A stretch of DNA of 64,000 nucleotides from Ehretia macrophylla (taxonomy: Eukaryota > Streptophyta > Magnoliopsida > Boraginales > Ehretiaceae). Made by a program: the position numbers and the translations under genes. Below the pieces are notes generated by a model that was not told the origin of the DNA, made no database searches, and worked only from the letters and a program-made list of their open reading frames with translations. The stretch covers positions 13,982,762-14,046,761 of the forward strand of contig CM075783.1 in assembly GCA_037974665.1 (NCBI GenBank), read 5' to 3'. Positions 23,079 to 55,464 of this stretch are shown piece by piece. The stretch's first letter is position 1. Every line of letters begins with the position of its first letter.

Positions 23079-23091
23079 GGCTCTGATACCA
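23079..23091 (-). other. primer-binding site (initiator Met tRNA)
   Basis: The minus strand reads TGGTATCAGAGCC two bases inside the 5' LTR of the TRIM. Confidence 0.9.
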
Positions 23092-23093
23092 AC

Positions 23094-23707: not shown

Positions 23708-23975
23708 AAAGGTGGTATGAAGTATCAGATAAAAGGTTGTGCTGGTCAAGGTGCATTTGCTCAAGTATTTAAAGAATATGTCTACAGGTCAAGTTGGAGC
23801 ACTTAAGGTAATTAATCATTTGAATTTTGTTCTCATTAATGATCGTTCAATATGAATAAGTTTATGATGGATTGCTTGTTGGATCGTGAACATTTCCATC
23901 AGATATAAAAGCCACATTTTCCTTGGAAATTCTACATATACCGTCAGCTTGATAAGCAAATTCCAGAATCAGAAG
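23708..23975 (+). pseudogene. BUB1: BUB1-like checkpoint kinase fragment (two exons)
   Basis: BUB1 kinases act at kinetochores in the spindle checkpoint. The first exon, up to 23817, encodes YQIKGCAGQGAFAQVFKEYV, a glycine-rich ATP loop of the plant BUB1 type. After a frameshift it continues into GALKV, which would hold the conserved ATP-binding lysine. A GTAATT donor follows. The second exon starts after a CATTTCCATCAG acceptor at 23903 and reads, after a stop in place of the usual Gln (ATA TAA AAG), KPHFPWKFYIYRQLDKQIPE, matching the QKP-FPWEFY-YRQLD segment that follows the lysine in BUB1. No other kinase subdomain is found on either side. The fragment has a frameshift and a nonsense codon and is a pseudogene. 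The family call rests on remembered motif order, not on a search. Confidence 0.7.
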
Positions 23976-26483
23976 TACGCCATTCTTGAATTCTTCTGGC
24001 GTTTGTTAAAAAATGCCTCTTCTCACCAGAGAGCATATAATAGCTCAGACCCAGCATATAGTATACAGTACATATTTGCATACATTAATATGTTACTTCA
24101 AAATTTTATTTATAATTATGTGAATAACTTAATTCAATTCATTCATTAATTGCACTATTTATTATATTTTTGAAATACATGCAATTAGAGTTTAACAAAA
24201 ATTAAATAAGATAACTATCTTAATTTTATAATTGTTGAAATTTATTCTTTTGTATTTAATCGCTAGATTCTATTATTTTCTATTAATTGCTTAAATAACT
24301 CAAACCCGGACATGAAAATTTTATGTTTCTTTTTTTTTTTGAATTACTTATTTTTCTTATATTCCATATCATTTATATAATCGTTCGATCATCGTGCTAT
24401 GTGCATAGCATATCGGGAGTGTCGAAAAATTAATTAACTTTAGTGTCCCCGAATGAATAGTAATATTTTAGTTGTTTTGGGCCTTTAGTTTTTTTAAATT
24501 AGATTTCTACCTTGTTGTTTAACCCAATTACATTTTATTTTAGCCCAACCCATTATCTAATATAACTATCTACCTATTATATATTTATAGATATACATAT
24601 TAGTTAGACAACACAAAAACAAAGAGGAAAAAAAATGTCTAGAAGCAGAGAGAGAGGGAGAGAGAAACGGTTGAGAGAAGAAAAGCTAGGGCATGTGATT
24701 TTCTTCAATTTTCAGCCATTTTAGCAAGAATTGGAGTGATCTTTAGCTAATTTTCATCCATTCCTAGCTTGTGCAAGGTGAGAGAAGCTTTTAATGTGCA
24801 TTTCTCTTGATTTCTAGTTGTAGAGAAATTTTGTAATTGTTGATATTTGATGATATAATGCTTCTAATACCTCAAATGCTAGCTAGAGATGGTGTAGAAC
24901 AACTTTTGAGCTTTGTTTACATGTGTAGTTGAAGATTAATTGGTAGTTGATAGGTTGAAGATGATGAATAGTAAAAAAATGTGAATAGTAAATCCTTATG
25001 TTCTAGCTTATTCTATTGCTTTATAAGTGTAATTTAGGAGTTGTTAAACCTAGATTAAAGCCTAAAACATTTTTATGGCGCTAAACTAATATGCAGTTTT
25101 AGTAGTTGTAGTTGAAGTGAATGTTTGTTAGTAATAGTTAATTATGTAGGCCAAGTGTTTGATAGATGTTCTAAGTGAGGTTGATGAGTGGCATATGCTA
25201 ACTATAAGTAATATAGCTAAAAGTAGAGTAGTGCAAAAGAGTAATTTTGAACTGTGCACTGCCGGTGACTTCTAGAGAACTTTTGACATAGTAAAACTGC
25301 TCAAAAATTAACAAAATTTGTACAGTAGCTAGATTAGGCAGTTTAGAGCAAATGTGGATTCTAGTGCTAAGCCTAATTCTAATGTTTTGACCCTCTGATT
25401 TTGCTATTTTCGAAATTTGTCTGGAAAAAATCGCTAGTGCAGAGCAGATTGCGTGATGATTTTGTGGAGGTCATATCTCAATGAATATAACTCCGAAATG
25501 AGATCTTTTTGAGGCTAAACCCATCTATATTCGATGAACTACATTTCTGTGGAGTTTCAGAGTTTTTGGAGAACAATTATGCTGGTAACAAAAGCCGCAA
25601 AGTCAAGCCAATGTAAACTAGAATTTCAACTTATCTTGCTATAGGTTTATGATGCCTTGATGGTTGTACTGTTCTTATTACATGTTAGTGTCTTGAAATT
25701 GGTCAACTAATAACTAACTACGCTTGTGTGTGTGAGTGAGAGAGAGTTTGTGTGTGTGTGAGTGAGAGAGAGTTTGTGTGTGTGTGAGTGTGTGTGTATG
25801 TACATATGGGTGTAATTCTATAGGTATTTTAATCTTAATAACTTGTTCAGATAACAGTTTTATTCAAACAAGTTTTTTGTTTTTAAAATTTATTTTTGAA
25901 AACTATTTTCTGAAATTGTTTTAGAAAACCAAAAAAAACCAATTCACACGTTTCTTCATGCCGGCTACCTTCTAACTCTGTCTACTCATAGATTAAGTAA
26001 ATTCACTCATCTTCTCACTCTCTATATCTACGTGTATTTATACGTAAATATGTATAGCAAGAGTTTCGTGTATGGGATCTTTTCATATTAGTTGGATTAA
26101 ACGTTATTTGGAATTTGGATGCATTTTAGTTACGAATTACTCTAACCGAAGTTATTTTTTTTTTCCTGTTTGAATTTGTTGAGGATAATATTTTCTTGCA
26201 AAAGATATTTTACCTGATTTGATGAAAATTTTCGTAAAATTTTGAGGTCTTGATTTCTATCACACATACATTGAAAGTTTGTATGTGTGATATAAGCGAA
26301 GAATTTTGATTTTACTTTTCCATGTGGACTATGAATTATGTGTGAGAATTTACAAAGTTTTAAAATAGTGTTCTGGACGCACAGACACACACACACTCTC
26401 TCATACATAGACACACACAAACTTTCACACGCATACAAAAACAAAAACAAAAACAAAAAATACAAGCAGCAATTTTTAGAAAT
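23976..26483. other. non-coding, with a possible old LTR fragment and microsatellites
   Basis: No gene is recognised. From about 24420 to 25640 the sequence resembles, in layout, the LTRs at 40144 and 51018. It has a CCCGAATGAATAGTAATATTTT-like start, a TATA-like AT tract near 24575, a CTTCAATTTTCAG-type leader, and the recurring words GATGAATAGTAAAA. It may be a degenerate LTR of the same chromovirus group, with low certainty. A (GT)n/(GA)n microsatellite lies at about 25727-25805, and an (AC)n tract followed by (CAAAAA)n lies at about 26384-26460. Confidence 0.35.
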
Positions 26484-26543
26484 TGCTAAAAAATTTCCCT
26501 AAACAGAGCACAAATATTGAAACTTCTTCTTCCCTATTCAATA

Positions 26544-26690
26544 ATGGCATCCACTTTCTTTCGAATCAAGTTAACCTATGCTGCTAGTGGGTTCAAAGGC
26601 TCCCTACACCAAACCTTGCACAAGAAGGTTTTTCGACAATTCCATCCCATGCCGATTCCAAATGAGATGCCCAAAATGGTTGGTAACTAG
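26544..26690 (+). other. first satellite copy: exon-like frame at the array edge
   Basis: The leftmost copy starts with ATGGCATCCACTTTC and stays open for 48 codons (MASTFFRIKLTYAASGFKGS and on through FRQFHPMPIPNEMPKMVGN) to TAG at 26688. A donor-like GGTAACT lies at 26682-26688. It is preceded by CTTCTTCTTCCCTATTCAATA, a leader-like pyrimidine-rich stretch that does not match the satellite linker found before every other monomer. So satellite homology begins at the start codon. I recognise no protein family. It may be the founder exon, or simply a truncated edge copy. Confidence 0.45.
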
Positions 26691-28377
26691 AATTTTCAAT
26701 TTTAATTTATTTTCACTTTTTGTGTATTAGCTACGGATAATACACAAAATCCATTCCCATTCAAATGGATTATGTAATGGTTTGCTAAATTCTGTGTTAA
26801 TTAGTAGATGAGTTAAATCCATCAGTTTATCCTAAAATCCCATTGGGTAAAATGGATTTATCTTATGAGTTATTGCTTATATTAATTCAATAAAATATAC
26901 TTGTATTATTGAATGGTAATGCAATCCACTTTCGTCCGAATCAAGTTAACCTATGCTACTAGTGGGTTCAAAGGCTCCCTACACCAAACCTTGCACAAGC
27001 AGGTTTTTCGACAATTCCATCCCATGCCGACCCCACCTAAGATGCCCAAAATGGTTGGTAACTATAAATTTTCAATTTTAAAATATTTTCACTTTTTGGG
27101 TATTAGCTACGGATAATACACAAAATCCATTCCGATTCAAATGCAATCTGTAAGGGTTTGCTAAATTCTGTGTTAATTAACTCATCTAAAATCCCATTGG
27201 GTAAAATGGATTTATCTTATGAGTTATTGCTTATATTAATTCAGTAAATTATACTTGTATTATTGAATGCTAATGTCATCCACTTTCTTCCGAATCAAGT
27301 TAACCCATGCTGCTAGTGGTTTCAAAGGCTCCATACACCAAACTTTGCACAAGCAAGTTTTTCGACAATTCCATCCCATGCCGATTCCAACTGAGATGCA
27401 CAAAATGGTTGGTAACTATAAATTTTCAATTTTAATATATTTTCATTTTTTGTGTATTAGCTACGGATAATACACAAAATCCATTCCGATTCAAATGGAT
27501 TCTGTAAGGGTTTGCTAAATTCTGTGCTAATTAGTAGATGAGTTAAATCCATCTGTTTATCCTAAAATCCCATTGGGTAAAATGGATTTATCTTATGAGT
27601 TATTGGAAATAATAATTTAGTAAATTATACTTGTATTATTGAATGCTAATGTCATCTACATTCTTCCGAATCAAGTTAACCCATGCTGCTAGTGGGTTCA
27701 TAGGCTCCCTGCACCAAACCTTGCACAAGCAGGTTTTTCGACAATTCGATCCCATGCCGATTCCAACTGAGATGCCACAAAATGGTTGGTAACTTTAAAT
27801 TTTCAATTTTAATATATTTTCACTTTTTGTGTATTAGCTACGGATAATACACAAAATCCATTCTGATTCAAATGGATTCTGTAAGGGTTTGCTAAATTAT
27901 GTGTTAATTAGTAGATGAGTTAAATCCATTAGTTTATCCTAAAATCCCATTAGGTAAAATGGATTTATCTTATGAGTTATTGCTTAAATTAATTCAGTAA
28001 ATTATACTTGTATTATTGAATGCTAATGTCATCCACTTTCTTCCGAATCAAGTTAACCCATGCTGCTAGTGGGATCAAAGGCTCCCTACACCAAACAATG
28101 CAAAACCAGGTTTTTTGTCAATTTCATCCCATGCCGATTCCAACTGAGACGCCCAAAATGGTTGGTAACTATAAATTTTCAATTTTAATATATTTTCACT
28201 TTTTGTGTATTAGCTACGGATAATACACAAAATCCATTTTGAATCAAATGGATTATGTAAGTTAATTAGTAGATGAGTTAAATCCATCAGTTTATCCTAA
28301 AATCCCATTGGGTAAAATGGATTTATCTTATGAGTTATTGCTTATATTAATTCAGTAAATTATACTTGCATGATTGA

Positions 28378-31300
28378 ATGCTAATGTCATCCACTTTCTT
28401 CCGAATCAAGTTAACCCATGCTGCTAGAGGGTTCAAAGGCTCCCTACACCAATCCTTGCACAAGCAGGTTTTTCGACAATTCCATCCCATGCCGATTCCA
28501 ACTGAGATGCACAAAATGGTATGGAACTATAAATTTTCAATTTTAATATATTTTAATTTTTTGTGTATTAGCTACGGATAATACACAAAATCCATTCCGA
28601 TTCAAATGGATTCTGTAAGGGTTTGCTAAATTTTGTATTAATTAGTAGATGAGTTAAATCCATCAGTTTATCCTAAAATCTCTTTGGGTAAAATGGATTT
28701 ATCTTATGAGTTATTGCTTATATTAATTCAGTAAATTATACTTGTATTATTGAATGTTAATGTCATCAACTTTCTTCCGAATCAAGTTAACCCATGCTGC
28801 TAGTGGGTTCAAAGGCTCCCTACACCAAACCTTGCACAAGCAGGTTTTTCGACAATTCCATCCCATGCCGATTCCAACTGAGATGCCCAAAATGGTTGGT
28901 AACTATAAATTTTTAATTTTAATATATTTTCAATTTTTGTGTATTAGCTACGGATAATACACAAAATCCATTCTGATTCAAATGGATTCTGTAAGGGTTT
29001 GCTAAATTCAGTGTTAATTAGTAGATATGTTAAATGCATTAGTTTATCCTAAAATCCCATTGGGTAACAAGGATTTATCTTATGAGTTATTGATTATATT
29101 AATTCAGTAAATTATACTTGTATTATTGAATGTTAATGTCATCCATTTTCTTTCGAATCAAGTTAACCCATGCTGCTAGTGGGTTCAAAGACTCCCTACA
29201 CCAAACCATGCACAACCAGGTTTTTCGACAATTCCGTCCCATGCCGATTCCAACTGAGATGCCCAAAATGGTTGGTAACTATAAATTTTCAATTTTAACA
29301 TATTTTCACTTTTTGTGTATTAGCTACGGATAATACAGAAAATCAATTCCGATTCAAATGGATTCTGTAAGGGTTTGCTAAATTCTGTGTTAATTATTAG
29401 ATGAGTTAAATGCATCAGTTTATCCAAAAATCCCATTGGGTAAAATGGATTTATCTTATAAGTTATTGCTTATATTAATTCAGTAAATTATACTTGTATT
29501 ATTGAATGCTAATGTCATCCACTTTCTTCCGAATCAAGTTAATCAATGCTGCTAGTGGGTTCAAAGGCTCCCTACACCAAACCTTGCAGAAGCAGGTTTT
29601 TCAACAATTTCATCCCATGCCGATTCCAACTGAGATGCACAAAATGGTTGGTAACTATAAATTTTCAATTTGAATATATTTTCATTTTTTGTGTATTAGC
29701 TACGGATAATACACAAAATCCATTTCGATTCAAATGGATTCTGTAAGGGTTTGCTAAATTCTGTGTTAATTAGTAGATGAGTTAAATCTATCAGTTTATC
29801 CTAAAATCCCATTGGGTAAAATGGATTTATCTTATGAGTTATTGCTTATATTAATTCAGTAAATTATACTTGTATTATTGAATGCTAATGTCATCCACTT
29901 TCTTCCGAATCAAGTTAACCCATGCTGCAAGTGGGTTCAAAGGCTCCCTATAGCAAACCTTGCACAAGCAGGTTTTTCAACAATTGCATTCCATGCCGAT
30001 AACAACTGAGATGCCCAAAATGGTTGGTAACTATAAATTTTCAATTTTAACGTATTTTCACTTTTTGTGTATTCGCTACGGATAATACACAAAATCCATT
30101 CCGATTTAAATGGATTCTGTAAGGGTTTGCTAAATTCTATGTTAATTAGTAGATAAGTTAAATGCATCAGTTTATCCTAAAATCCCATTGGGTAAAATGG
30201 ATTTATCTTATGAGTTATTGCTTATATTAATTCAGTAAATTATACTTGTATTATTGAATGCTAATGTCATCCACTTTCTTCCGAATCAAGTTAACCCATG
30301 CTGCTAGTGGGTTCAAAGGCTCCCTACACCAAACCTTGCACAAGCAAGTTTTTCGACAATTCCATCCCATGCCGAATCTAAATGAGATGCCCAAAATGGT
30401 TGGTAACTATAAATTTTCAATTTTAATATATTTTCACTTTTTGTGTATTAGCTATGGATAATACAAAAAATCCATTTCGATTCAAATGGATTCTGTAAGG
30501 GTTTGCTAAATTCTGTGTTAATTAGTAGATGAGTTAAATCTATCAGTTTATCCTAAAATCCCATTGGGTAAAATGGATTTATCTTATCAGTTATTGCTTA
30601 TATAAATTCAGTAAATTATACTTGTCTTATTGAATGCTAATGTCATCCACTTTCTTCCGAATCAAGTTAACCCATGCTGCTAGTGGGTTCAAAGGCTCCC
30701 TACACGAAACATTGCACAAGCAGGTTTTTCGAGAATTCCATCCCATGCCTATTCCAACTGAGATGCCCAAAATGGTTGGTAACTATAAATTTTTATTTTT
30801 AATATATTTTCAATTTTTGTGTATTAGCTACGGATAATAAACAAATCCATTCTGATTCAAATGGAGTCTGTAAGGGTTTGCTAAATTCAGTGTTAGTTAG
30901 TAGATATGTTAAATCCATCTGTTTATCCTAAAATCCCATTGGGTAACATGGATTTATCTTATGAGTTATTGATTATATTAATTCAGTAAATTATACTTGT
31001 ATTATTGAATGTTAATGTCATCCACTTTCTTTCGAATCAAGTTAACCCATGCTGCTAGTGGGTTCAAAGACTCCCTACACCAAACCATGCACAACCAGGT
31101 TTTTCGACAATTCCGTTCCATGCCGATTCCAACTGAGATGCCCAAAATGGTTGGTAACTATAAATTTTCAATTTTAACATATTTTCACTTTTTGTGTATT
31201 AGCTACGGATAATACACAAAATCCATTCCGATTCAAATGGATTCTGTAAGGGTTTGCTAAATTCTGTGTTAATTAGTAGATGATTTAAATCCATCAGTTT

Positions 31301-32136
31301 ATCCTAAAATCCCATTGGGTAAAATGGATTTATCTTATGAGTTATTGCTTATATTAATTCAGTAAATTATACTTGTATTATTGAATGCTAATGTCATCCA
31401 CTTTCTTCCGAATCAAGTTAACCAATGCTGCTAGTGGGTTCAAAGGCTTCCTACACCAAACCTTGCACAAGCAGGTTTTTCAACAATTTCATCCCATGCC
31501 GATTCCAACTGAGATGCACAAAATGGTTGGTAACTATAAATTTTCAATTTGAATATATTTTCATTTTTTGTGTATTAGCTACGGATAATACAAAAAATCC
31601 ATTTCGATTCAAATGGATTCTGTCAGGGTTTGCTAAATTCTGTGTTAATTAGTAGATGAGTTAAATCCATCAGTTTATCCTAAAATCCCATTGGGTAAAA
31701 TGGATTTATCTTATGAGTTATTGCTTATATTAATTCAGTAAATTATATTTGTATTATTGAATGCTAATGTCATCCACTTTCTTCCGAATCAAGTTAACCC
31801 ATGCTGCAAGTGGGTTCAAAGACTCCCTATAGTAAACCTTGTACAAGCAGGTTTTTCAACAATTGCATTCCATGCTGATACCAACTGAGATGCCCAAAAT
31901 GGTTGGTAACTATAAACTTTCAATTTTAACATATTTTCACTTTTTGTGTATTCGCTACGGATAATATACAAAATCCATTCCGATTCAAATGGATTCTGTA
32001 AGGGTTTGCTAAATTCTATGTTAATTAGTAGATAAGATAAATGCATCAGTTTATCCTAAAATCCAATTGGGTAAAATGGATTTATCTTATGAGTTATTGC
32101 TTATATTAATTCAGTAAATTGTACTTGTATTATTGA
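28378..32136. repeat. two successive five-monomer higher-order repeats (~1.88 kb each)
   Basis: Copy-specific variants recur at a distance of 1879-1880 bp. The KDSLHQTMHN variant is at 29130 and 31009, the frame-altered copy with FFNNFIPCRF is at 29546 and 31425, and the copy closed by an in-frame TAG is at 29882 and 31761. The A-type copies at 28754 and 30634 are also paired. The period is therefore five monomers, 28378-30257 and 30258-32136. Confidence 0.8.
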
Positions 32137-35100
32137 ATGCTAATGTCATCCACTTTCTTCCGAATCAAGTTAACCCATGCTGCTAGTAGGGTCAAAGGCT
32201 CCCTACACCAAACCTTGCACAAGCAGGTTTTTCGACAATTCCATCCCATGCCGATTCCAAATGAGATGCCCAAAATTGTTGGTAACTATAAATTTTCAAT
32301 TTTAATATATTTTCACTTTTTGTGTATTAGCTATGGATAATACACAAAATCCATTCCGATTCAAATGGATTCTGTAAGGGTTTGCTAAATTCTGTGTTAA
32401 TTAGTAGATGAGTTAAATCCATTAGTTTATCCTAAAATCCCATTGGGTAAAATGGATTTATCTTTTTGCTTATATTAATTCAGTAAATTATACTTGTATT
32501 ATAGAATGCTAATGTCATCCATTTTCTTCCGAATCAAGTTAACCCATGCTGCTAGTGGGTTCAAAGGCTCCCTGCACCAAACCTTGCACAAGCAGGATTT
32601 TCGACAATTCCATCCCATGCCGATTCCAAATGAGATGCCCAAAATGGTTGGTAACTATAAATTTTCAATTTTATTATATTTTCAATTTTTGTGTATTAGC
32701 TACGGATAATACACAAAATCCATTCTGATTCAAATGGATTTTGTAAGGGTTTGCTAAATTCTGTGTTAATTAGTAGATGAGTTAAATCCATCAGTTTATC
32801 CTAAAATCCCATTGGGTAAAATGGATTTATCTTATCAGTTATTGCTTATATAAATTCAGTAAATTATACTTGTCTTATTGAATGCTAATGTCATCCACTT
32901 TCTTCCGAATCAAGTTAACCCATGCTGCAAGTGGGTTCAAAGGCTCCCTATACCAAACCTTGCACAAGCAGGTTCATCGACAATTCCAACCTATGCCGAT
33001 TCCCAATGAGATGGCCAAAATGGTTTGTAACTAGAATTTTCAATTTTAATATATTTTCACTTTTTGGTTATTAGCTACGGATAATACACAAAATCAATTC
33101 CGATTGAAATGGATTCTGTAAGGGTTTGCTAAATTATGTGTTAATTAGTGGATGAGTTAAATCCATCAGTTTATCCTAAAATCCCATTAGGTAAAATGGA
33201 TTTATCTTATGATTTATAGCTTATATTAATTCAGTAAATTATACTTGTATTATTGAATGCTAATGTCATCCACTTTCTTCCGAATCAAGTTAACCAATGC
33301 TGCTAGTGGGTTCAAGGGCTCCTTACACCAAACCTTGCACAAGCAGGTTTTTCGTCAATTCCATCCCATGCCGATTCCAAGTGAGATGCCCAAAATGGTT
33401 GGTAACTATAAATTTTCCATTTTAATATATTCTCACTTTTGAGTATTAGCAACCGATAATACACAAAATCCATTCTGATTCAAATGGATTCTGTAAGGGT
33501 TTGCTAAATTCAGTGGTAATTAGTATATAAGTTAAATCCATCAGTTTATCCTAAAATCCCATTGGGTAAATTGGATTTATCTTATGAGTTATTGCTTATA
33601 TTAATTCAGTAAATTATACTTGTATTATTGAATGCTAATGTCATCAATTTTCTTCCGAATCAAGTTAACCCATGTTGCTAGTGGGTTCAAAGGCTCCCTA
33701 CACCAAACCATGCACAACCAGGTTTTTCGACAATTCCGTCTCATGCTGATTCCAACTGAGATGCCCAAAATGGTTAGTAACTTTAAATTTTCAATGTTAA
33801 TATATTTTCACTTTTAGTCTATTAGCTACGGATAATATACAAAATCCATTCCGAGTCAAATGTATTCTGTAAGGGTTTGCAAAATTCTGTGTTAATTAGT
33901 AGATGAGTTAAATCCATCAGTTTATCCTAAAATCCCATTGGGTAAAATGGATTTATCTTATCAGTTATTGCTTATATAAATTCAGTAAATTATACTTGTC
34001 TTATTGAATGCTAATGTCATCCACTTTCTTCCGAATCAAGTTAACCCATGCTGCAAGTGGGTTCAAAGGCTCCCTATACCAAACCATGCACAAGCAGGTT
34101 CATCGACAATTCCAACCTATCGCGATTCCCAATGAGATGCCCAAAATGGTTGGTAACTAGAATTTTCAATTTTAATATATTTTCACTCTTTGGGTATTAG
34201 CAACGGATAATACACAAAATCCATTCCGATTGAAATGGATTCTGTAAGGGTATGCTAAATTATGTGTTAATTAGTGGATGAGTTAAATCCATCAGTTTAT
34301 CCTAAAATCTCATTGGGTAAAATGGATTTATCTTATGAGTTATAGCTTATATTAATTCAGTAAATTATACTTGTATTATTGAATGCTTATGTCATCCACT
34401 TTCTTCCGAATCAAGTTAACCCATGTTGCTAGTAGGTTCAAGGGCTCCTTATACCAAACCTTGCACAAGCAGATTCATCGACAATTCCAACCTATGCCGA
34501 TTCCCAATGAGATGCCCAAAATGGTTGGTAACTAGAATTTTTAATTTTAATATATTTTCTCTCTTTGGGTATTAGCTACGGATAATACACAAAATCCATT
34601 CCGATTGAAATGGATTCTGTAAGTGTTTTCTAAATTATGTGTTAATTAGTAGATGAGTTAAATCCATCAGTTTATCCTAAAATCCCATTGGGTAAAATGG
34701 ATTTATCTTATCAGTTATTGCTTATATAAATTCAGTAAATTATACTTGTCTTATTGAATGCTAATGTCATCCACTTTATTCCGAATCAAGTTAACCCATG
34801 CTGCAAGTGGGTTCAAAGGCTCCCTATACCAAACCTTGCACAAGCAGGTTCATCGACAATTCCAACCTATGCCGATTCCCAATGAGATGCCCAAAATGGT
34901 TGGTAACTAGAATTTTTAATTTTAATATATTTTCACTTTTTGGGTATTAGCTACGGATAATAAACAAAATCCATTCCGATTGAAATGGATTCTGTAAGGG
35001 TTTGCTAAATTATGTGTTAATTAGTGGATGAGTTAAATCCATCTGTTTATCCTAAAATCCCATTGGGTAAAATGGATTTATCTTATGAGTTATTGCTTAT

Positions 35101-38100
35101 ATTAATTCAGTAAATTATACTTGTATTATTGAATGCTTATGTCATCCACTTTCCTCCGAATCAAGTTAACCCATGCTGCTAGTGGGTTCAAGGGCTCCTT
35201 ACACCAAACCTTGCAGAAGCAGGTTTTTCGACAATTCCATCCCATGCCGATTCCAACTGAGATGCCCAAAAAGGTTGGTAACTATATATTTTCAATTTTA
35301 ATATATTTTCACTTTTTGTGTATTAGCTATGGATAATACACAAAATCCATTCTGATTCAAATGGATTCTGTAAGGGTTTGCTAAATTCAGTGGTAATTAG
35401 TAGATAAGTTAAATCAATCAGTTTATCCTAAAATCCCATTGGGTAAAATGGATTTATCTTATGAGTTATTGCTTATATTAATTCAGTAAATTATACATGT
35501 ATTATTGAATGCTAATGTCATCAATTTTCTTCCGAATCAAGTTAACCCATGCTGCTAGTGGGTTCAAAGGCTCCCTACACCAAAACATGCACAACCAGGT
35601 TTTTCGACAATTCCGTCCCATGCCGATTCCAACTGAGATGCCCAAAATGGTTAGTAACTTTAAATATTCAATTTTAATATATTTTCACTTTTTGTGTATT
35701 AGCTACGGATAATACACAAAATCCATTCCGAGTCAAATGGATTATGTAAGGGTTTGCAAAATTATGTGTTAATTAGTAGTTAAGTTAAATCCATCAGTTT
35801 ATCCTAAAATCCCATTGGGTAAAATGGATTTATCTTATGAGTTATTGCTTATATTAATTCAGTAAATTATACTTGTATTATTGAAAGCTAATGTCATCCA
35901 CTCTCTTCCGAATCAAGTTAACCCATGCTGCTAGTGGGTTCAAAGGCTCCCTACACCAAACCTTGCACAAGCAGGTTCTTCGACAATCCCAACCTATGCC
36001 GATTCCAAATGAGATGCCCAAAATGGTTGGTAACTTGAATTTTCAATTTAATATATTTTCACTTTTTGGGTATTAGCTACGGATAATACACAAAATCCAT
36101 TCCGATTGAAGTGGATTCTGTAAAGGTTTGCTAAATTATGTGTTAATTAGTAGATGAGTTAAATCCATCAGTTTATCTTAAAATCCCATTGGGTAAAATG
36201 GATTTATCTTATGAGTTACTGCTTATATTAATTCAATAAAATATACTTGTATTATTGAATGCTAATGTCGTCCACTTTCTTCCGAATCAAGTTAACCAAT
36301 GCTGCTAGTAGGTTGAAAGGCTCCCTACACCAAACCTTGCACAAGCAGGTTTTTCGACAATTCCATCCCATACCGATTCCAACTGAGATGCCCAAAATGG
36401 TTCGTAACTATAAATTTTCAATTTTATTATACTTTCACTTTTTGTGTATTAGCTACGGATAATACACAAAATCCATTCTGATTCAAATTGATTCTGTAAG
36501 GGTTTGCTAAATTCAGTGTTAATTGGTAGATAAGTTAAATCCATCAGTTTATCCTAAAATCCCATTGGGTAAAATGGATTTATCTTATGAATTATTGCTT
36601 TTATTAATTCAGTAAATTATACTTGTATTATTGAATGCGAATGTCATCCACTTTCTTCCGAATCAAGTTAACCCATGCTGCGAGTGGGTTCAAAGGCTCC
36701 TTACACCAAACCATGCACAACCAGGTTTTTCGACAATTTCATCCTATGCCGATTCCTACTGAGATGCCCAAAATGGTTGGAAACTTTAAATTTTCAATTT
36801 TAATATATTTTCACTTTTTGTGTATTAGCTACGCATAATACACAAAATCCATTCCGAGTCACATGGATTCTGCAAGGGTTTGCAAAATTCTGTGTTAATT
36901 AGTAGATGAGTTAAATCCACCAGTTTATTCTAAAATCCCAGTGGGTAACATGGATTTATCTTATGAGTTATTGATTATATTAATTCAGTAAATTATACTT
37001 GTATTATTGAATGTTAATGTCATCCACTTTCTTTCGAATCAAGTTAACCCATGCTGCTAGTGGGTTCAAAGACTCCCTACACCAAACCATGCACAACCAA
37101 GCTTTTCGACAATTCCGTGCCATGCCGATTCCAACTGAGATGCCCAAAATGGTTGGTGACTATAAATTTTCAATTTTAACATATTTTCACTTTTTGTGTA
37201 TTAGCTACGGATAATACAAAATCCATTCCGATTGAAATGGATTCTGTAAGGGTTTGCAAAATTCTGTGTTAATTAGTAGATGAGTTAAATGCATCAATTT
37301 GTCCTAAAATCCCATTGGGTAAAATGGATTTATCTTATGAGTTATTGGTTATATTAATTCAGTAAATTATACTTGTATTATTGAAAGCTAATGTCATCCA
37401 CTTTCTTCCGAATCAAGTTAACCCATGCTGCAAGTGGGTTCAAAGGCTCCCTGCACCAAACCTTGCACAAGCAGGATTTTCGACAATTCCATCCCATGCC
37501 GATTCCAAATGAGACGCCCAAAATGGTTGGTAACTATAAATTTTCAATTTTAATATATTTTCAATTTTTGTGTATTAGCTACGGATAATACACAAAATCC
37601 ATTCCGATTCAAATGGATTTTGTAAGGGTTTGCTAAATTCTGTGTTAATTAGTAGATGAGTTAAATCCATTAGTTTATCCTAAAATCCCATTGGGTAAAA
37701 TGGATTTATCTTATCAGTTATTGCTTATATAAATTCAGTAAATTATACTTGTCTTATTGAATGCTAATGTCATCCACTTTCTTCCGAATCAAGTTAACCC
37801 ATGCTGCAAGTGGGTTCAAAGGCTCCCTATAACAAACCTTGCACAAGCAGGTTCATCGACAATACCAACCTATGCCGATTCCCAATGAGATGCCCAAAAT
37901 GGTTGGTAACTAGAATTTTCAATTTTAATATATTTTCACTCTTTGGGTATTAGCTACGGATAATACACAAAATCCATTCCGATTGAAATGGATTATGTAA
38001 GGGTTTGCTAAATCATGTGCTAATTAGTGGATGAGTTAAATCCATCAGTTTATCCTAAAATCCCATTGGGTAAAATGGATTTATATTATGAGTTATAGCT

Positions 38101-38511
38101 TATATTAATTCAGTAAATTATACTTGTGTTATTGAATGCTAATGTCATCCACTTTCTTCCGAATCAAGTTAACCCATGCTGCTAGTGGGTTCAAGGGCTC
38201 CTTACACCAAACCTTGCACAAGCAGGTTTTTCGACAATTCCATCCCTTGCCGATTCCAACTGAGATGCCCAAAATGGTTGGTAACTATAAATTTTCAATT
38301 TTAATATATTTTCACTTTTTGTGTATTAGCAACCGATAATACACAAAATCCATTCTGATTCAAATGGATTCTGTAAGGGTTTGCTAAATTTAGTGGTAAT
38401 TAGTATATAAGTTAAATCCATCAGTTTATCCTAAAATTCCATTGGGTAAAATGGATTTATCTTATGAGTTATTGCTTATCTTAATTCAGTAAATTATACT
38501 TGTATTATTGA

Positions 38512-40012
38512 ATGCTAATGTCATCAATTTTCTTCCGAATCAAGTTAACCCATGCTGCTAGTGGGTTCAAAGGCTCCCTACACCAAACCATGCACAACCA
38601 GGTTTTTCGACAATTCCGTCTCATGCCGATTCCAACTGAGATGCCCAAAATGGTTAGTAACTTTAAATTTTCAAATATAATATATTTTCACTTTTTGTCT
38701 ATTAGCTAAGGATAATACACAAAATCCATTCCGAGTCAAATGGATTCTGTAAGGGTTTGCAAAATTATGTGTTAATTAGTAGACGAGTTAAATCCAACAG
38801 TTTATCCTAAAATCCCATTGGGTAAAATGGATTTATCTTATGAGTTATTGCTTATATTAATTCAGTAAATTATACTTGTATTATTGAAAGCTAATGTCAT
38901 CCACTTTCTTCCGAATCAAGTTAACCCATGCTGCAAGTGGGTTCAAAGGCTCCCTACACCAAACCTTGCACAAGCAGGTTCTTCGACAATCCCAACCTAT
39001 GCCGATTCCAAATGAGATGCCCAAAATGGTTGGTAACTTGACTTTTCAATTTTAATATATTTTCACTTTTTGGGTATTAGCTACGGATAATACACAAAAT
39101 CCATTCCGATTGAAATGGATTCTGTAAGGGTTTGCTAAATTATGTGTTAATTAGTAGATGAGTTAAATCCATCAGTTTATCCTAAAATCTCATTGGGTAA
39201 AATGGATTTATCTTATCAGTTATTGCTTATATAAATTCAGTAAATTATACTTGTCTTATTGAATGCTAATGTCATCCACTTTTTTCCGAATCAAGTTAAC
39301 CCATGCTGCAAGTGTGTTCAAAGGCTCCCTATACCAAATCTTGCACAAGCAGGTTCATCGACAATTCCAACCTATGCCGATTCCCAATGAGATGCCCAAA
39401 ATGGTTGGTAACTAGAATTTTCAATTTTAATATATTTTCACTTTTTGGGTATTAGCTACGGATAATAAAAAAATCCATTCCGATTGAATTGGATTCTGTA
39501 AGGGTTTGCTAAATTATGTGTTAATTAGTGGATGAGTTAAATCCATCAGTTTATCCTAAAATCCCATTGGGTAAAATGGATTTATCTTATGAGTTATTGC
39601 TTATATTAATTCAGTAAATTATACTTGTATTATTGAATGCTTGTGTCATCCACTTTCTTCCGAATCAAGTTAACCCATGCTGCTAGTGGGTTCAAGGGCT
39701 CCTTACACCAAACCTTGCACAAGCAGGTTTTTCGACAATTCCATCCCATGCCGATTCCAACTGAGATGCCCAAAATGGTTGGTAACTATAAATTTTCAAT
39801 TTTAATATATTTTCACTTTTTGTGTATTAGCTACGGATAATACACAAAATCCATTCTGATTCAAATGGATTCTGTAAGGGTTTGCTAAATTCAGTGGTAA
39901 TTAGTAGATAAGTTAAATCCATCAGTTTATCCTAAAATCCCATTGGGTAAAATGTATTTATCTTATGAGTTATTGCTTATATTAATTCAGTAAATTATAC
40001 TTGTATTATTGA
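38512..40012. repeat. four-monomer higher-order repeat (types B-D-C-A), duplicated next door
   Basis: This 1501-bp block reappears almost unchanged starting at 40013, continuing after the LTR insertion from 45782 to about 47150. Shared private variants include TTTTCAAATATAATAT (38670 and 45806), GTAGACGAGTTAAATCCAACAG (38789 and 45919), and GATAATAAAAAAATCC (39461 and 46602). Subtracting the 5638-bp insertion puts the two copies exactly 1501 bp apart. Confidence 0.88.
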
Positions 40013-40143
40013 ATGCTAATGTCATCAATTTTTTTCCGAATCAAGTTAACCCATGCTGCTAGTGGGTTCAAAGGCTCCCTACACCAAACCATGCACAACC
40101 AGGTTTTTCGACAATTCCGTCTCATGCCGATTCCAACTGAGAT

Positions 40144-42665
40144 TGTGACACCCGAGAATTTCACCATAGAATTTATTATAATCGTTGCATACTTATGTGC
40201 GCATTTCTACGTGCATCATTTTTCTTGTTTAATTGTTTTTGTTGTGGGTTACTATTCATAATATTTTTGACTGTTTCAAAAGCTTGATTTTAAATTTTTC
40301 CTAGGTCATATGACATTTAAAAGGAACCAAGAAATTTTCGTTTTGAACTTTCGAGCTTAGGAGTATGCGTTTGAAAAATATTTTCCGTGAGCTTTGAATA
40401 GTGTTACGTAAGAATAGTAACATTTGCAACTAAAAATAATTGAAATTGCATTTTGGCCTAGTTTGACTAAGTTTTTAATGGAATTTGACCCCATTTAATA
40501 ACACATACACATACATAAAACAACTAACTCATCAATTAAAAGCCACATAACATATTAGCTCTCAAAACAATTGCAAAAATTCCCTCCATGTCCCCCCCAT
40601 TTGGCCGTCCACTTCAAGAGAGGAAAGGAGAGAATTTTGCTTCAACATCCATGCACTTGAGCTCCTAGATTGATCTTGAGAGGATTTTGGAGCAACTTAG
40701 GACCTTCAACAAAGCTTCTACATCTTCAAAATTGTGAGGGAGATGCATTTATTTGTTTTTAAAGTTTATGTGCATATATTGAATTTTATTGATTTGTTGA
40801 TATTAGCTATAAAGCTTGTTATGAATGCTTTCTATGAGTTATTTGATGCCTATAGAGTTAACTTTTGAGGTTTGATAGCAAAGTTAATGGTTGAAACTTG
40901 AAATTGATCAAAGAGGTGATGAATAGTGCAGTGAATAGTAAAATCTGAAAATTTAGGATTTTTTTTTAATTATATAATTTGTTAATTGGCTTGAATTGAT
41001 GCCTCATTTAGGTGCTCTAGACCCTAAGGAAGGTAATTGAAAAGCCACGTTATGTTGAATCACTCGAATTTGAACTTTAGTGCATAAATCGCTTACTTTA
41101 AAAAGGGGGTTTTGCACGTTAGGCAATCCGGGCAAATTTGGGCATCGATTTGGGTATCCTTGAGCTAAGGAAGCACCTTTGGTGCTTTCGTTTCGCGAAA
41201 TTGGGGTTCGGTTAGTATGGCTATAGTTCAAACCCGTTCGGGGCCTTCCCGAACTTTTGCTTCAAAAATGAGATTTAGTGACTTTAAAGGGTACCTTTAA
41301 GCTTAATTAGGAATATAGAAAGACTAGGGTAGGATTGAGAATCTCGAACTATGCTTAGGAGAAAGAAAGCTCGATTAAAGAAAGGGGAAATGTAGTGTTT
41401 AGCCTTTTTAGTTGCATTTGAAACTTGTTGTGTGTTAGTAATGACTTGCATTGAATATTTAGGATGTATTTAAGTTATTTGAGTAGATTATTGGAATTAA
41501 TTGTGTTGATTGCTACTTTTGGTATCTTAAAGTTAATATCGTGCTTATTTGAACTTTTATCGTGCATATATGTGAGGGCGGCCTACTTTGTCGTCCCTCT
41601 TACGTGTTATGTGATATATTGATTGTTTGTGACTTGTATTGGGTTGCGCAACCTAAATCGGACATGGTAGCGTCGAGAAACACGGGCGGCATCGGGCTTG
41701 CCGTGCTCCCTCGACTACCATGGTGCCTATTCCCTTCTCGCTGAGGCATACTCCACTACCCCAGAGGCGTGGTTCACCTGCTGGGCATGGACCTACCTCG
41801 GGAGAAAGGGTCGTAGGATCGGGATACATCCGGAGTATCCCAATTGTTGGTGTTTGGGGTTTTCCGGCATGTTCGTGATGCTCGTGGTTCGTGGCTCGTG
41901 ATTGAAGACTCGGAAGTGGAACCGTATCCTTTTTAAAAGTGGTTAATTGCTTGGTTTATTGTCTTGTTGGTTTATGTGGATTATATATGTTTTCTTGTGT
42001 TTGCATATCATATTGCACGTTGGCATGCTGCATCACCTCCCTCGCTGGGCAACTTTGTTGCTCATTCCTCATTTAACATGTTTCAGGTGAAGCTGAGGTG
42101 AATCCTCAGCTGATAGAAGAAGAGGAAGTTTACGTAGATCAGAATCCGTGACTTTGTGTGCTGAGGTGGATTTTATGTGCTTCTTGCGTGGAGTTCTTGT
42201 TAAAAATGTATTTTGAGGCTTTGGAGTCTTGTATATATATGTCTAGTAGATGTGTACTAGGATGTTAAAGAAAGTTGTTGGATTGTAATAATGAATTCTA
42301 GACTTTAATTTCCCTTGCATGCTTGGAGTGTTAGTTAATCTTCATATGGAACTTAGAATTTCATTGTATTTAATTACTTATGACTAAAACCAACTTATCT
42401 CGCATGCTTGTGTGCTTTAGTAGAATGTTGTTGCTCCAAGGCTCGGATGGCCTTGTGATTGTGTTTTAGCTTTGGAGACATTAGTAGATAAGTTGTTGTT
42501 ATAGTTCAAAAGACTTGAGTGGCTATTTGCAGGTAACAGTATTGTCCTATAAACAGGGGAGACTCCGTCCGTTTTCCCCTAAAATTTTGTGCCCGGGGTT
42601 TGGAATTGGTTGAGAATAGCATGGTTATTAGAGCCTCCGGTCTCGTGAGGGATCGGGGCGTTACA
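40144..42665 (+). repeat. 5' LTR of the LARD-like element
   Basis: The 2522-bp LTR includes a GC-rich part near 41560-41900 with a stem-loop at 41663-41722. ORFs of 60-75 codons on both strands recur in both LTR copies, simply because the LTRs are near identical, and have no domain. Confidence 0.92.
41663..41722. other. LTR stem-loop
   Basis: CATGGTAGCGTCGAG at 41663 pairs with CTCGACTACCATG ending at 41722. Inside it CACGG pairs with CCGTG. The same hairpin occurs at 44774-44833 in the other LTR and at 52514-52573 in the nested solo LTR, with no change in the stem. Confidence 0.7.
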
Positions 42666-43253
42666 GAAGTGGTATCAGAGCTTAGCTAGTTAGCTAGGCG
42701 CAAGTCGGGATAAGGTCTTCGGCTTGTGGGGTAGTGGCCTTAGTGTCAATGTGTTTAGAAAGTGTATGTGCATGTCTTATGTGATAAGAGAGTTAATGTG
42801 ATCAATGTGCTTATGTGATCAACATGTTTTATTTGTTGAGTGAACTAGTTGTGGTTTATGTGCTTGTGTGATAAGTGATATGGATGTGGTTAACATGCTT
42901 GATGTGTTTACATGTTCAATGTGTTTATTTGATTAATGCGAGCTATGTGATTAACGTGCCTTGTGTGAATTATGTGCTTTGAGTACTTGAGTGCTCGATA
43001 TGCTTTATATGACTAATGTGAATATGTGATTAACTTGTTTTATGTGAAATTGTTGTTTAAATGACTTAGTAGTTTATGATTTGTGTATGTGAACTTGTTG
43101 CTTATATGACTTTACTTGTTATAAATTGCTAACGTGATCAATATGTTTTATGTGTTAAGCATGCTTACGTGAAACAATGTGTTTTATCTATGAGGGTAAC
43201 TTGCTTGTATGTGTAAGAATTGCGAGGATGCAATTAGTTTAAGGGGGAGAGGG
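42666..43253 (+). other. 588-bp interior of the LARD-like element
   Basis: The interior holds TGGTATCAGAGC (42670-42681), then a leader in which words like TGTGATTAACGTGCTT recur irregularly, then the pol tail and purine tract. The same kind of TGTGAT-rich leader lies at 55260-55440 in the gypsy element. There is no coding frame. Confidence 0.85.
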
Positions 43254-45776
43254 TGTGACACCCGAGAATTTCACCATAGAATTTATTATAATCGTTGCAT
43301 ACTTATGTGCGCATTTCTACGTGCATCATTTTTCTTGTTTAATTGTTTTTGTTGTGGGTTACTATTCATAATATTTTTGACTGTTTCAAAAGCTTGATTT
43401 TAAATTTTTCCTAGGTCATATGACATTTAAAAGGAACCAAGAAATTTTCGTTTTGAACTTTCGAGCTTAGGAGTATGCGTTTGAAAAATATTTTCCGTGA
43501 GCTTTGAATAGTGTTACGTAATAATAGTAACATTTGCAACTAAAAATAATTGAAATTGCATTTTGGCCTAGTTTGACTAAGTTTTTAATGGAATTTGACC
43601 CCATTTAATAACACATACACATATATAAAACAACTAACTCATCAATTAAAAGCCACATAACATATTAGCTCTCAAAACAATTGCAAAAATTCCCTCCATG
43701 TCCCCCCCATTTGGCCGTCCACTTCAAGAGAGGAAAGGAGAGAATTTTGCTTCAACATCCATGCACTTGAGCTCCTAGATTGATCTTGAGAGGATTTTTG
43801 GAGCAACTTAGGACCTTCAACAAAGCTTCTATATCTTCAAAATTGTGAGGGAGATGCATTTATTTGTTTTTAAAGTTTATGTGCATATATTGAATTTTAT
43901 TGATTTGTTGATATTAGCTATAAAGCTTGTTATGAATGCTTTCTATGAGTTATTTGATGCCTATAGAGTTAACTTTTGAGGTTTGATAGCAAAGTTAATG
44001 GTTGAAACTTGAAATTGATCAAAGAGGTGATGAATAGTGCAGTGAATAGTAAAATCCGAAAATTTAGGGTTTTTTTTTAATTATATAATTTGTTAATTGG
44101 CTTGAATTGATGCCTCATTTAGGTGCTCTAGACCCTAAGGAAGGTAATTGAAAAGCCACGTTATGTTGAATCACTCGAATTTGAACTTTAGTGCATAAAT
44201 CGCTTACTTTAAAAAGGGGGTTTTGCACGTTAGGCAATCCGGGCAAATTTGGGCATCGATTTGGGTATCCTTGAGCTAAGGAAGCACCTTTGGTGCTTTC
44301 GTTTCGCGAAATTGGGGTTCGGTTAGTATGGCTATAGTTCAAACCCGTTCGGGGCCTTCCCGAACTTTTGCTTCAAAAATGAGATTTAGTGACTTTAAAG
44401 GGTACCTTTAAGCTTAATTAGGAATATAGAAAGACTAGGGTAGGATTGAGAATCTCGAACTATGCTTAGGAGAAAGAAAGCTCGATTAAAGAAAGGGGAA
44501 ATGTAGTGTTTAGCCTTTTTAGTTGCATTTGAAACTTGTTGTGTGTTAGTAATGACTTGCATTGAATATTTAGGATGTATTTAAGTTATTTGAGTAGATT
44601 ATTGGAATTAATTGTGTTGATTGCTACTTTTGGTATCTTAAAGTTAATATCGTGCTTATTTGAACTTTTATCGTGCATATATGTGAGGGCGGCCTACTTT
44701 GTCGTCCCTCTTACGTGTTATGTGATATATTGATTGTTTGTGACTTGTATTGGGTTGCGCAACCTAAATCGGACATGGTAGCGTCGAGAAACACGGGCGG
44801 CATCGGGCTTGCCGTGCTCCCTCGACTACCATGGTGCCTATTCCCTTCTCGCTGAGGCATACTCCACTACCCCAGAGGCGTGGTTCACCTGCTGGGCATG
44901 GACCTACCTCGGGAGAAAGGGTCGTAGGATCGGGATACATCCGGAGTATCCCAATTGTTGGTGTTTGGGGTTTGCCGGCATGTTCGTGATGCTCGTGGTT
45001 CGTGGCTCGTGATTGAAGACTCGGAAGTGGAACCGTATCCTTTTTAAAAGTGGTTAATTGCTTGGTTTATTGTCTTGTTGGTTTATGTGGATTATATATG
45101 TTTTCTTGTGTTTGCATATCATATTGCACGTTGGCATGCTGCATCACCTCCCTCGCTGGGCAACTTTGTTGCTCATTCCTCATTTAACATGTTTCAGGTG
45201 AAGCTGAGGTGAATCCTCAGCTGATAGAAGAAGAGGAAGTTTACGTAGATCAGAATCCGTGACTTTGTGTGCTGAGGTGGATTTTATGTGCTTCTTGCGT
45301 GGAGTTCTTGTTAAAAATGTATTTTGAGGCTTTGGAGTCTTGTATATATATGTCTAGTAGATGTGTACTAGGATGTTAAAGAAAGTTGTTGGATTGTAAT
45401 AATGAATTCTAGACTTTAATTTCCCTTGCATGCTTGGAGTGTTAGTTAATCTTCATATGGAACTTAGAATTTCATTGTATTTAATTACTTATGACTAAAA
45501 CCAACTTATCTCGCATGCTTGTGTGCTTTAGTAGAATGTTGTTGCTCCAAGGCTCGGATGGCCTTGTGATTGTGTTTTAGCTTTGGAGACATTAGTAGAT
45601 AAGTTGTTGTTATAGTTCAAAAGACTTGAGTGGCTATTTGCAGGTAACAGTATTGTCCTATAAACAGGGGAGACTCCGTCCGTTTTTCCCTAAAATTTTG
45701 TGCCCGGGGTTTGGAATTGGTTGAGAATAGCATGGTTATTAGAGCCTCCGGTCTCGTGAGGGATCGGGGCGTTACA
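43254..45776 (+). repeat. 3' LTR of the LARD-like element
   Basis: This is a 2523-bp copy of 40144-42665, with a few substitutions and one extra T near 43800. It starts straight after the purine tract AAGGGGGAGAGGG and ends at the second GAGAT. Confidence 0.92.
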
Positions 45777-48700
45777 GAGATGCCCAAAATGGTTAGTAAC
45801 TTTAAATTTTCAAATATAATATATTTTCACTTTTTGTCTATTAGCTAAGGATAATACACAAAATCCATTCCGAGTCAAATGGATTCTGTAAGGGTTTGCA
45901 AAATTATGTGTTAATTAGTAGACGAGTTAAATCCAACAGTTTATCCTAAAATCCCATTGGGTAAAATGGATTTATCTTATGAGTTATTGCTTATATTAAT
46001 TCAGTAAATTATACTTGTATTATTGAAAGCTAATGTCATCCACTTTCTTCCGAATCAAGTTACCCCATGCTGCAAGTGGGTTCAAAGGCTCCCTACACCA
46101 AACCTTGCACAAGCAGGTTCTTCGACAATCCCAACCTATGCCGATTCCAAATGAGATGCCCAAAATGGTTGGTAACTTGACTTTTCAATTTTAATATATT
46201 TTCACTTTTTGGGTATTAGCTACGGATAATACACAAAATCCATTCCGATTGAAATGGATTCTGTAAGGGTTTGCTAAATTATGTGTTAATTAGTAGATGA
46301 GTTAAATCCATCAGTTTATCCTAAAATCCCATTGGGTAAAATGGATTTATCTTATCAGTTATTGCTTATATAAATTCAGTAAATTATACTTGTCTTATTG
46401 AATGCTAATGTCATCCACTTTCTTCCGAATCAAGTTAACCCATGCTGCAAGTGTGTTCAAAGGCTCCCTATACCAAATCTTGCACAAGCAGGTTCATCGA
46501 CAATTCCAACCTATGCCGATTCCCAATGAGATGCCCAAAATGGTTGGTAACTAGAATTTTCAATTTTAATATATTTTCACTTTTTGGGTATTAGCTACGG
46601 ATAATAAAAAAATCCATTCCGATTGAATTGGATTCTGTAAGGGTTTGCTAAATTATGTGTTAATTAGTGGATGAGTTAAATCCATCAGTTTATCCTAAAA
46701 TCCCATTGGGTAAAATGGATTTATCTTATGAGTTATTGCTTATATTAATTCAGTAAATTATACTTGTGTTATTGAATGCTTGTGTCATCCACTTTCTTCC
46801 GAATCAAGTTAACCCATGCTGCTAGTGGGTTCAAGGGCTCCTTACACCAAACCTTGCACAAGCAGGTTTTTCGACAATTCCATCCCATGCCGATTCCAAC
46901 TGAGATGCCCAAAATGGTTGGTAACTATAAATTTTCAATTTTAATATATTTTCACTTTTTGGGTATTAGCTATGGATAATACACAAAATCCATTCCGATT
47001 GAAATGGATTCTGTAAGGGTTTGCTAAATTATGTGTTAATTAGTAGATGAGTTAAATCCATCAGTTTATCTTAAAATCGCATTGGGTAAAATGGATTTAT
47101 CTTATGAGTTATTGCTTATATTAATACAGTAAATTATACTTGTATTATTGAAAGCTAATGTCATCCACTTTCTTCCGAATCAAGTTAACCCATGCTGCAA
47201 GTGGGTTCAATGGCTCCCTACACCAAACCTTGCACAAGCAGGTTCTTCGCCAATCCCAACCTATGCCGATTCCAAATGAGATGCCCAAACTGGTTGGTAA
47301 CTTGAGTTTTCAATTTTAATATGTTTTCACTTTTTGGGTATTAGCTACGGATAATACAAAAAATCCATTCCGATTGAAATGGATTCTGTAAGGGTTTGCT
47401 AAATTATGTGTTAATTAGTAGATGAGTTAAATCCATCAATTTATCCTAAAATCCCATTGGGTAAAATGGATTTATCTTATGAGTTATTGCTTATATTAAT
47501 TCAATAAAATATACTTGTATTATTGAATGCTAATGTCATCCACTTTCTTCCGAATCAAGTTAACCCATGCTGCTAGTGGGTTGAAAGGCTCCCTACACCA
47601 AACCTTGCACAAGCAGGTTTTTCGACAATTCCGTCCCATGCCGATTCCAACTGAGATGCCCAAAATGTTTGGTAACTATAAATTTTCAAATTTAATATAT
47701 TTTCACTTTTTGTGTATTAGCTACGGATAATACACAAAATCCATTCTGATTCAAATGGATTCTGTAAGGGTTTGCTTAATTCAGTGGTAATTAATAGATA
47801 AGTTAAATCCATCAGTTTATCCTAAAATCCCATTGGGTAAAATGGATTTATCTTATTGCTTATATTAATTCAGTAAATTATACTTGTATTATTCACTGCT
47901 AATGCCATCCACTTTCTTCCGAATCAAGTTAACCCATGCTACTAGTGGGTTCAAAGGCTTCCTACACCAAACCTTGCACAAGCAGGATTTTCGACAATTC
48001 CATCCCATGCCGATTCCAAATGAGATGCCCAAAATGGTTGGTAACTATAAATTTTCAATTTTAATATATTTTCACTTTTTGTGAATTAGCTACGGATAAT
48101 ACACAAAATCCATTCCGATTCAAATGGATTTTGTAAGGGTTTTCTAAATTATGTGTTAATTAGTAGATGAGTTAAATCCATCAGTTTATCCTAAAATCCC
48201 ATTGGGTAAAGTGGATTTATCTTATCAGTTATTGTTTATTTAAATTCAGTAAATTATACTTGTCTTATTGAATGCTAATGTCATCCACTTTCTTCCGAAT
48301 CAAGTTAACCCATGCTGCAAGTGGGTTCAAAGGCTCCCTATACCAAACCTTGCACAAGCAGGTTCATCGACAATTCCAACCTATGCCGATTCCCAATGAG
48401 ATGCCCAAAATGGTTGGTAACTAGAATTTTCAATTTTAATATATTTTCACTTTTTGGGTATTAGCTACGGATAATACACAAAATCCATTCCGATTGAAAT
48501 GGATTCTGTAAGGGTTTGCTAAATTATGTGTTAATTAGTGGATGAATTAAATCCATCAGTTTATCCTAAAACCCCATTGGGTAAAATGGATTTATCTTAT
48601 GAGTTATTGCTTATATTAATTCAGTAAATTATACTTGTATTATTGAATGCTAATGTCATCCACTTTCTTCCGAATCAAGTTAACCCATGCTGCTAGTGGG

Positions 48701-55171: not shown

Positions 55172-55177
55172 TTTAAG

Positions 55178-55190
55178 TGGTATCAGAGCG
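55178..55190 (+). other. primer-binding site (initiator Met tRNA)
   Basis: TGGTATCAGAGCG starts six bases after the 5' LTR and is complementary to the 3' end of initiator Met tRNA, except for its last base. Confidence 0.9.
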
Positions 55191-55464
55191 CATGTTAGTT
55201 GTCAGCCGGGGTATTCTCGGAATATGGGTAATGGTCTTAGCATGAAATATGTATGAAAAGAAAGAAAAGTGAAATATGTATTGATATGATTAAATGATAA
55301 ATGATTATGTGATTTAAGTGCTTATGTGATTTTGTGATCAATTTGCTTGTGTGATTGAAACTTATGTGATCTATGTGCTTTATATGAGTTTGTTGTTTAT
55401 GTGTTAAAAGTTGTATATAACGTGTTTACGTGCTATAACCTGTGCTAACTCTTTGATTAGTACG

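Follow-up and report, generated by a model that had tools for sequence, protein, structure and literature searches.

Organization of the satellite array

The window analyzed here, a stretch of 64,000 nucleotides of the Ehretia macrophylla genome (C20:13982762-14046761), contains a satellite array built of a 376-bp unit arranged head to tail, the first copy of which starts exactly at the ATG at position 26544. The initial annotation had recognized the array correctly and had drawn its extent too short, as the array resumes twice in the window (Table 1) and runs on along the contig. There are 50 complete copies in the window, 36 of them in 26544-40143, and the second stretch ends in a cut copy (50155) that carries a TAG at 50236, in codon 28.

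Each of the 50 copies is 0.935 to 0.995 identical to its nearest copy. In the left part of the array the closest copies are often five units apart, and the six leftmost copies all fall within the eight lowest nearest-copy identities of the 50, with a cut that was picked post hoc. Low identity of the leftmost copies is expected for an old array edge, and the five-unit spacing, together with the divergence on the left, is what unequal exchange predicts. A search of the genome (1.58 Gb, 20 contigs) with a 28-base query from the start of the exon, allowing up to three mismatches, returned 1047 forward and 0 reverse matches, a count that leaves out more diverged copies; among the matches listed, the first 100 of the 1047 places all lie on C20. 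A short unit in a long, homogenized, head-to-tail array with high copy number, as seen here, is what defines satellite DNA. An Rfam search of the window at gathering scores yielded 0 matches.

Table 1. Features of the window and their coordinates
Feature	Position	Strand	Details
Upstream flank recurring with heads	24592..26543	+	Start set by the length fetched at other heads
Head copy, exon 1	26544..26682	+	MASTFFRIKLTYAASGFKGSLHQTLHKKVFRQFHPMPIPNEMPKMV, then G/GT (slash, exon end); ATGGCATCC at five of five heads
Intron 1 start, inside the amplified unit	26683..26918	+	Composition
First array stretch	26919..40143	+	Exon 1 and intron start in tandem, period about 376
One-base insertion	27776..27777	+	Shifts the frame of copy 27649
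TAG	29951..29953	+	Codon 22 of copy 29888
TAG	31830..31832	+	Copy 31767
TAA	37830..37832	+	Copy 37767
LTR element in monomer	40144..45778	+	Pair of 2.5-kb LTRs with 99.7% identity and an internal part of about 0.6 kb; GAGAT as target duplication
Second array stretch	45774..50251	+	
Ty3/gypsy element in monomer	50247..62638	+	Target duplication GACAA/GACAT
Third array stretch	62639..64000	+	Runs past the window end; next exon 2 at C20:14597563

The larger of the two retroelements inserted in monomers gives matches to the gag, protease, reverse transcriptase, RNase H and integrase domains of Ty3/gypsy elements, with a chromodomain match below its cut-off, and its own LTR pieces are 97 to 98% identical. 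The smaller element is short, young and nonautonomous looking; a solo LTR of its family (51018-53482, 88% identical) is nested in the 5' LTR of the Ty3/gypsy element. Upstream of the array (22306-23329) lies what we take to be a TRIM-like element: a direct repeat of about 235 bp in two copies that are 96% identical and about 0.55 kb apart, accompanied on the minus strand by a TGGTATCAGAGCC-like site. The pieces at 23717-23986 may derive from a broken plant BUB1 kinase, by the way that they read; Pfam and PDB searches with them gave nothing convincing.

Array heads and the upstream flank

The DNA immediately preceding the array is not unique to the window. The segment 26100-26545 is found at five places on C20, the other four being 93 to 95% identical to it, and these leader copies end at 14009306 (the window), 14649826, 14665058, 15039474 and 15606595. 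At all five, the leader is followed by a head copy that begins with ATGGCA and has ATGGCATCC, in place of which most inner units have ATGTCATCC. Four complete heads are open to the donor, and the fifth is interrupted by an insertion after 12 codons. Between heads, 1.9 kb of 5' flank is 96 to 99% identical and free of gaps, which suggests that the loci are fairly young. At the head at 15.039 Mb, homology extends still farther upstream in pieces (L021-L023 against window positions 4501-27070, 93 to 99% identical).

The leader resembles a 5' untranslated region. Positions 26380-26543 contain 6% G and 47% A, and no ATG occurs for 206 nucleotides before the start codon, a length reached by 30 of the 1037 gaps between ATGs in the upstream 26.5 kb. 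Homology to the array starts at the ATG itself: the 60 bases upstream are unlike the end of the linker (0.964 of shuffles score as high) and unlike the linker end of the first copy itself (0.919). We therefore rejected the flank as a linker piece, as it shows no resemblance beyond that of shuffles; comparison of the flank with the LTRs of the window's elements gave no match at the cut-off used.

A part of the flank (25943-26182) has a partial, promoter-like match, 87% identical, at C18:23.925 Mb. In that region (C18:23.923-23.930 Mb; L046 and L050), about 240 bp of flank precede what frame reading suggests is a gene for a long coiled-coil-like protein. This gene was discarded as a source of exon 1, only promoter-like DNA being common to both; a tblastn search of L046, L048, L049 and L050 with exon 1 returned nothing at E values up to 100. 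On C4 and C10, the leader search additionally retrieved two short matches, both falling on a CA-rich stretch of the leader. Two segments of the flank, a TG/AG-rich one (25724-25791) and a CA/CT-rich one (26377-26444) that falls within the leader, are inverted relative to each other and 75% complementary over 68 nucleotides, at a distance of 585 nucleotides.

Right-hand junctions and exon 2

At the other end of the arrays we found a junction that is identical at four of four array ends, where a truncated last copy passes into an intron 3' end (TTTATTTCAG) and then into exon 2. The order is satellite, then TATACTTAATTA...TTTATTTCAG, then ACACCTACG. At C20:15774396, the satellite stops at unit position 129; next come TATACTTAATTAATTTTATTTTTATTTCAG and a frame of 107 codons that starts with TPTYIGKEFKKYASK. 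The same junction DNA, read in all three cases, recurs at C20 14597533 (98%), 14744596 (92%) and 15317061 (94%), which places the four copies of exon 2 at 14597563, 14744627, 15317092 and 15774427; a further right-end-like piece, 69% identical, lies at C20 16514908 on the minus strand.

Past exon 2, in the last locus, the one that was read fully, there is a match to the RNase H-like family RVT_3 (PF13456; E value 4.8e-8, 33.4 bits against a cut-off of 21.6), which covers only positions 88-122 of the 123 in the profile and is in a frame different from that of the first 107 codons of exon 2. These 107 codons match nothing in Pfam, and a PDB search with the RVT_3-like frame gave 0 matches. A protein search with the 107 codons retrieved 14 matches, nine of which lie outside the four loci; five of the nine have internal stops and four are open, including one on C20 at 9.819 Mb and two on C12, at 42.379 and 42.215 Mb, whose frames measure 295 and 300 aa. 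The existence of open relatives elsewhere suggests a small family around exon 2, some members of which look intact.

The heads and copies of exon 2 alternate along C20, all on the plus strand, in the order head (14.009 Mb), exon 2 (14.598), two heads (14.650 and 14.665), exon 2 (14.745), head (15.039), exon 2 (15.317), head (15.607) and exon 2 (15.774), so that the four duplicated loci span 1.77 Mb and the distances from head to exon 2 are 588, 80-95, 278 and 168 kb. Among the matches listed, read by eye, every satellite position falls in an interval that opens with a head and closes with the following exon 2, and six 10-kb blocks outside these intervals (two before the third locus and four after the last) contain no satellite. 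This distribution suggests that, in each of the four duplicated loci, "intron 1" is occupied by the satellite.

Proposed origin of the satellite by amplification of a first exon

On the basis of these observations, we propose that the satellite very probably arose when exon 1 and the beginning of intron 1 were amplified in tandem at their original location, and that exon 2, beyond the array, would lead into the RVT_3-like sequence. The repeat unit is contiguous with unrepeated gene parts on both sides, with the leader and head on the left and the acceptor and exon 2 on the right. Derivation from the 5' end of a gene, a first exon with the beginning of an intron, had already been put forward in the initial annotation; it is borne out by the leader and ATGGCA at five loci and by the way in which all four right ends join the same end of the intron and exon 2. 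What could not be seen from the window alone is that the array would lie inside the source gene itself.

We infer that exon 1 and exon 2 form one gene and, from the shared junctions, that events took the following order. Exon 1 and the start of the intron would have been duplicated in tandem, after which the last copy was presumably cut at about unit position 129 and fused to the intron 3' end. The locus would then have been duplicated along one contig to give four loci, one with two heads, taking along 22 kb or more of upstream DNA in the single case that was read. Finally, the arrays may have expanded separately by unequal exchange and gained LTR retrotransposons. That a truncated last unit is common to all four right ends suggests that the unit was repeated before the locus was duplicated. 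Against the proposal we count the position of the best compositional split of the unit, the phase of the donor, the deficits of stops and exon indels in the window, and the lack of a protein match for exon 1, each of which is taken up below.

State of the host loci

If the arrays were working giant introns, the loci would still be transcribed and spliced from head to exon 2. In keeping with such activity, the four complete heads retain the ATG, the open frame and the donor; all four acceptors are intact; and in loci C and D the first 107 codons of exon 2 are open and encode an identical protein over 107 residues. We nevertheless consider this unlikely, as the decay of exon 2 and the geometry of the loci argue against it. 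All four copies of exon 2 share a TGA after codon 107, with no indel between them in the 178 to 193 bases compared around it. The RVT_3 match lies beyond this TGA in another frame in the one fully read locus; exon 2 is frameshifted in locus A, and in locus B the match covers residues 1-82 only. Moreover, 80 to 588 kb separate head from exon 2, and the main donor is out of phase: the strong site GTAACT would yield a product that stops after nine codons. A weaker donor, GTTGGT, four bases upstream, would preserve the frame into exon 2.

An intact coding frame downstream was thus not found, and we hold with moderate confidence that the four loci are probably pseudogenes that have lost their function. 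Two of the loci could still specify a short product of exon 2, of 107 codons.

An exon-like frame in the repeat unit

In agreement with the initial description of the frame, most copies are open from the ATG through 46 codons to GTTG/GTAAC. An intact frame, with an ATG, no stop and no indel, is present in 44 of the 50 complete copies in the window and in 31 of the 36 in 26544-40143. The remaining defects are a stop at codon 22 in three copies (two TAG and one TAA), a one-base insertion in one and a GTG start in two. Both TAGs (29951 and 31830), like the insertion at 27776, had been noted before and are real; the impression that few copies are closed did not hold, as the TAA at 37830 and the change of ATG to GTG at 39643 had been missed and as many as 62 of 190 copies sampled outside the window are closed, against 4 of 49 within it, a count that leaves out copy 26919. 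The GT of the donor is kept in 48 of the 50 copies, and the exact GTTGGTAAC is kept in 39.

Beyond the donor, the frame loses its generality. The 67-residue reading offered previously is open through codon 65 in only 24 of the 50 copies; one T is missing after the donor in 16 copies, the first included, the frames of which close at codons 49 to 62, except for one that closes at codon 22. Similarly, the acceptor-like TTTTTGTGTATTAG proposed within the unit ends 49 nucleotides past the GT of the donor, which makes for a short intron in a plant, where introns are usually longer than this.

We regard as very unlikely the alternative that the satellite is ordinary nongenic DNA, in which the frame, the compositional step and the donor arose by chance and which acquired its gene-like flanks through rearrangement, even though several features of the unit would accommodate it. 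Frames of at least 65 aa occur in 347, and of at least 48 aa in 921, of 2000 dinucleotide shuffles of the monomer, so that frame length alone is unsurprising, and the open frame that the copies share is shared by descent. Likewise, GGTAA is present in 380 of 1000 shuffled monomers. Searches with the exon 1 peptide against PDB sequences, Pfam, viral contigs and prokaryote contigs found nothing above chance, and uL29m, considered as a relative, was dismissed as a chance-level match (E value 0.81). Chance would still have to explain why the array starts exactly at an ATG behind the leader at five loci and why four of four right ends run into an acceptor and exon 2. Composition points in the same direction. 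Although the best two-segment GC split of the unit is at 32-129 (log likelihood ratio [LLR] 9.55, a best value reached by 0.02 of 200 shuffles), a nearly equal split at 3-140 (LLR 9.49) spans the ATG to the donor, within two bases of the ATG and one base of the exon end, with 45% GC in the exon and 25% in the start of the intron. These boundaries, namely, the start of the array at the ATG, the GC split and the leader, are supporting signs rather than proof of the origin of the unit from an exon.

Fate of the frame during amplification

Whether the frame is maintained can be read from the changes among copies. In the window, the distinct substitutions in the frame comprise 77 nonsynonymous, 26 synonymous and 4 stop changes, where 85.2, 28.9 and 6.2 are expected from the linker. 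A larger set of 239 complete copies was drawn from 212,433 merged bases of C20 and three head loci, as complete exons in this sample rather than genome-wide (276 pieces, minus 8 short and 29 incomplete ones, the window copy at 26919 being among those dropped). It gave 199 nonsynonymous, 69 synonymous and 9 stop changes against a scaled neutral expectation of 201.9, 63.3 and 11.8. Nonsynonymous and stop changes agree with the neutral expectation in both sets, consistent with the earlier remark that there is no clear sign of selection. The 239 copies include 48 with stops, 23 with frameshifts and 3 without an ATG, leaving 172 intact, and 12 of 40 indel events fall in the exon, near the 37% expected from its length. 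Outside the window, closed frames number 36 of 110, 1 of 12, 8 of 19 and 17 of 49 by locus, and first stops at codons 7, 28 and 31 recur in 10, 9 and 14 copies, respectively.

The part of the array in the window is unusually open. Only 3 of its 50 copies bear stops, against about 10 in simulations along trees; matching the number of variants gives a probability of 0.05 to 0.11 for three or fewer, unscaled trees give 0.016 and 0.006, and a run with another root gives 0.01, with a range of 0.006 to 0.115 over all settings. One of 10 indel events in the window is in the exon (P = 0.07). These weak signs of selection disappear with 239 copies. Helical moment is unremarkable in the peptide of the first copy (0.19).

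It is most improbable that translation and selection of the frame continue, for instance in the form of many small mitochondrial-targeting-like peptides, a reading favored by the few stops in the window and by the six basic and no acidic residues among the first 40 of the first copy (equaled by 0.0235 of 2000 open shuffles, in a test picked post hoc) and opposed by substitution classes that fit neutrality in both sets, by the stops and frameshifts, including the multiplied stops at codons 7, 28 and 31, and by exon indels in proportion to length. Continued coding use, which the initial annotation had allowed for, is therefore unsupported by the comparison of rates that it had itself suggested; the neutral rate of stops and nonsynonymous changes speaks against such use and not against origin from a gene. 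The copies have inherited an open frame that is not being maintained, and closed ones were multiplied as well.

Comparison with known systems

We found no report of a satellite grown from the first exon of a gene in the literature searched, which included few subscription journals. The "376 bp" of a jujube study (PMC12596083) is the length of a probe from an LTR and is unrelated. Spacers of rDNA and transposable elements are named as satellite seeds in one review (PMC5615363), and in another article, retrotransposon origin of satellites is described as frequent (PMC7004042). As in those cases, a unit taken from an existing element would have been amplified in tandem, thereafter evolving as a satellite. 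The seed differs: here it would be exon 1 and the start of an intron, amplified in place and with both borders of the gene still attached. The beginnings of satellites are usually lost because the seed is erased; in the present case the seed survives together with both borders and four daughter loci whose arrays differ in length, so that the initial duplication, its spread and the way in which coding constraint was lost may be read on one chromosome. The case also serves as a warning: passive inheritance can account for open frames in satellites and for the gene models drawn to them.

With respect to location, the closest parallel that we can draw is with the Y-linked genes kl-3 and kl-5 of Drosophila, which have satellite between their exons and very long introns (PMC6508621). 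In both, satellite lies between the exons of a gene. The fly satellites are simple and megabases long, and the genes are expressed; in Ehretia, the repeat would consist of exon and intron of the very gene that houses it, at four duplicated, decayed-looking loci. Transcription of at least one of these loci from its head promoter, with splicing over a satellite that measures tens to hundreds of kilobases and is built from its own exon 1, strikes us as quite unlikely. If true, each unit would offer another first exon and donor, and the locus would parallel, in a plant, the giant satellite introns of genes on the fly Y chromosome, with the difference of having grown from the gene's own sequence. 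The surprise lies in the location, with a satellite that appears to fill the intron of its own source gene in four duplicated loci.
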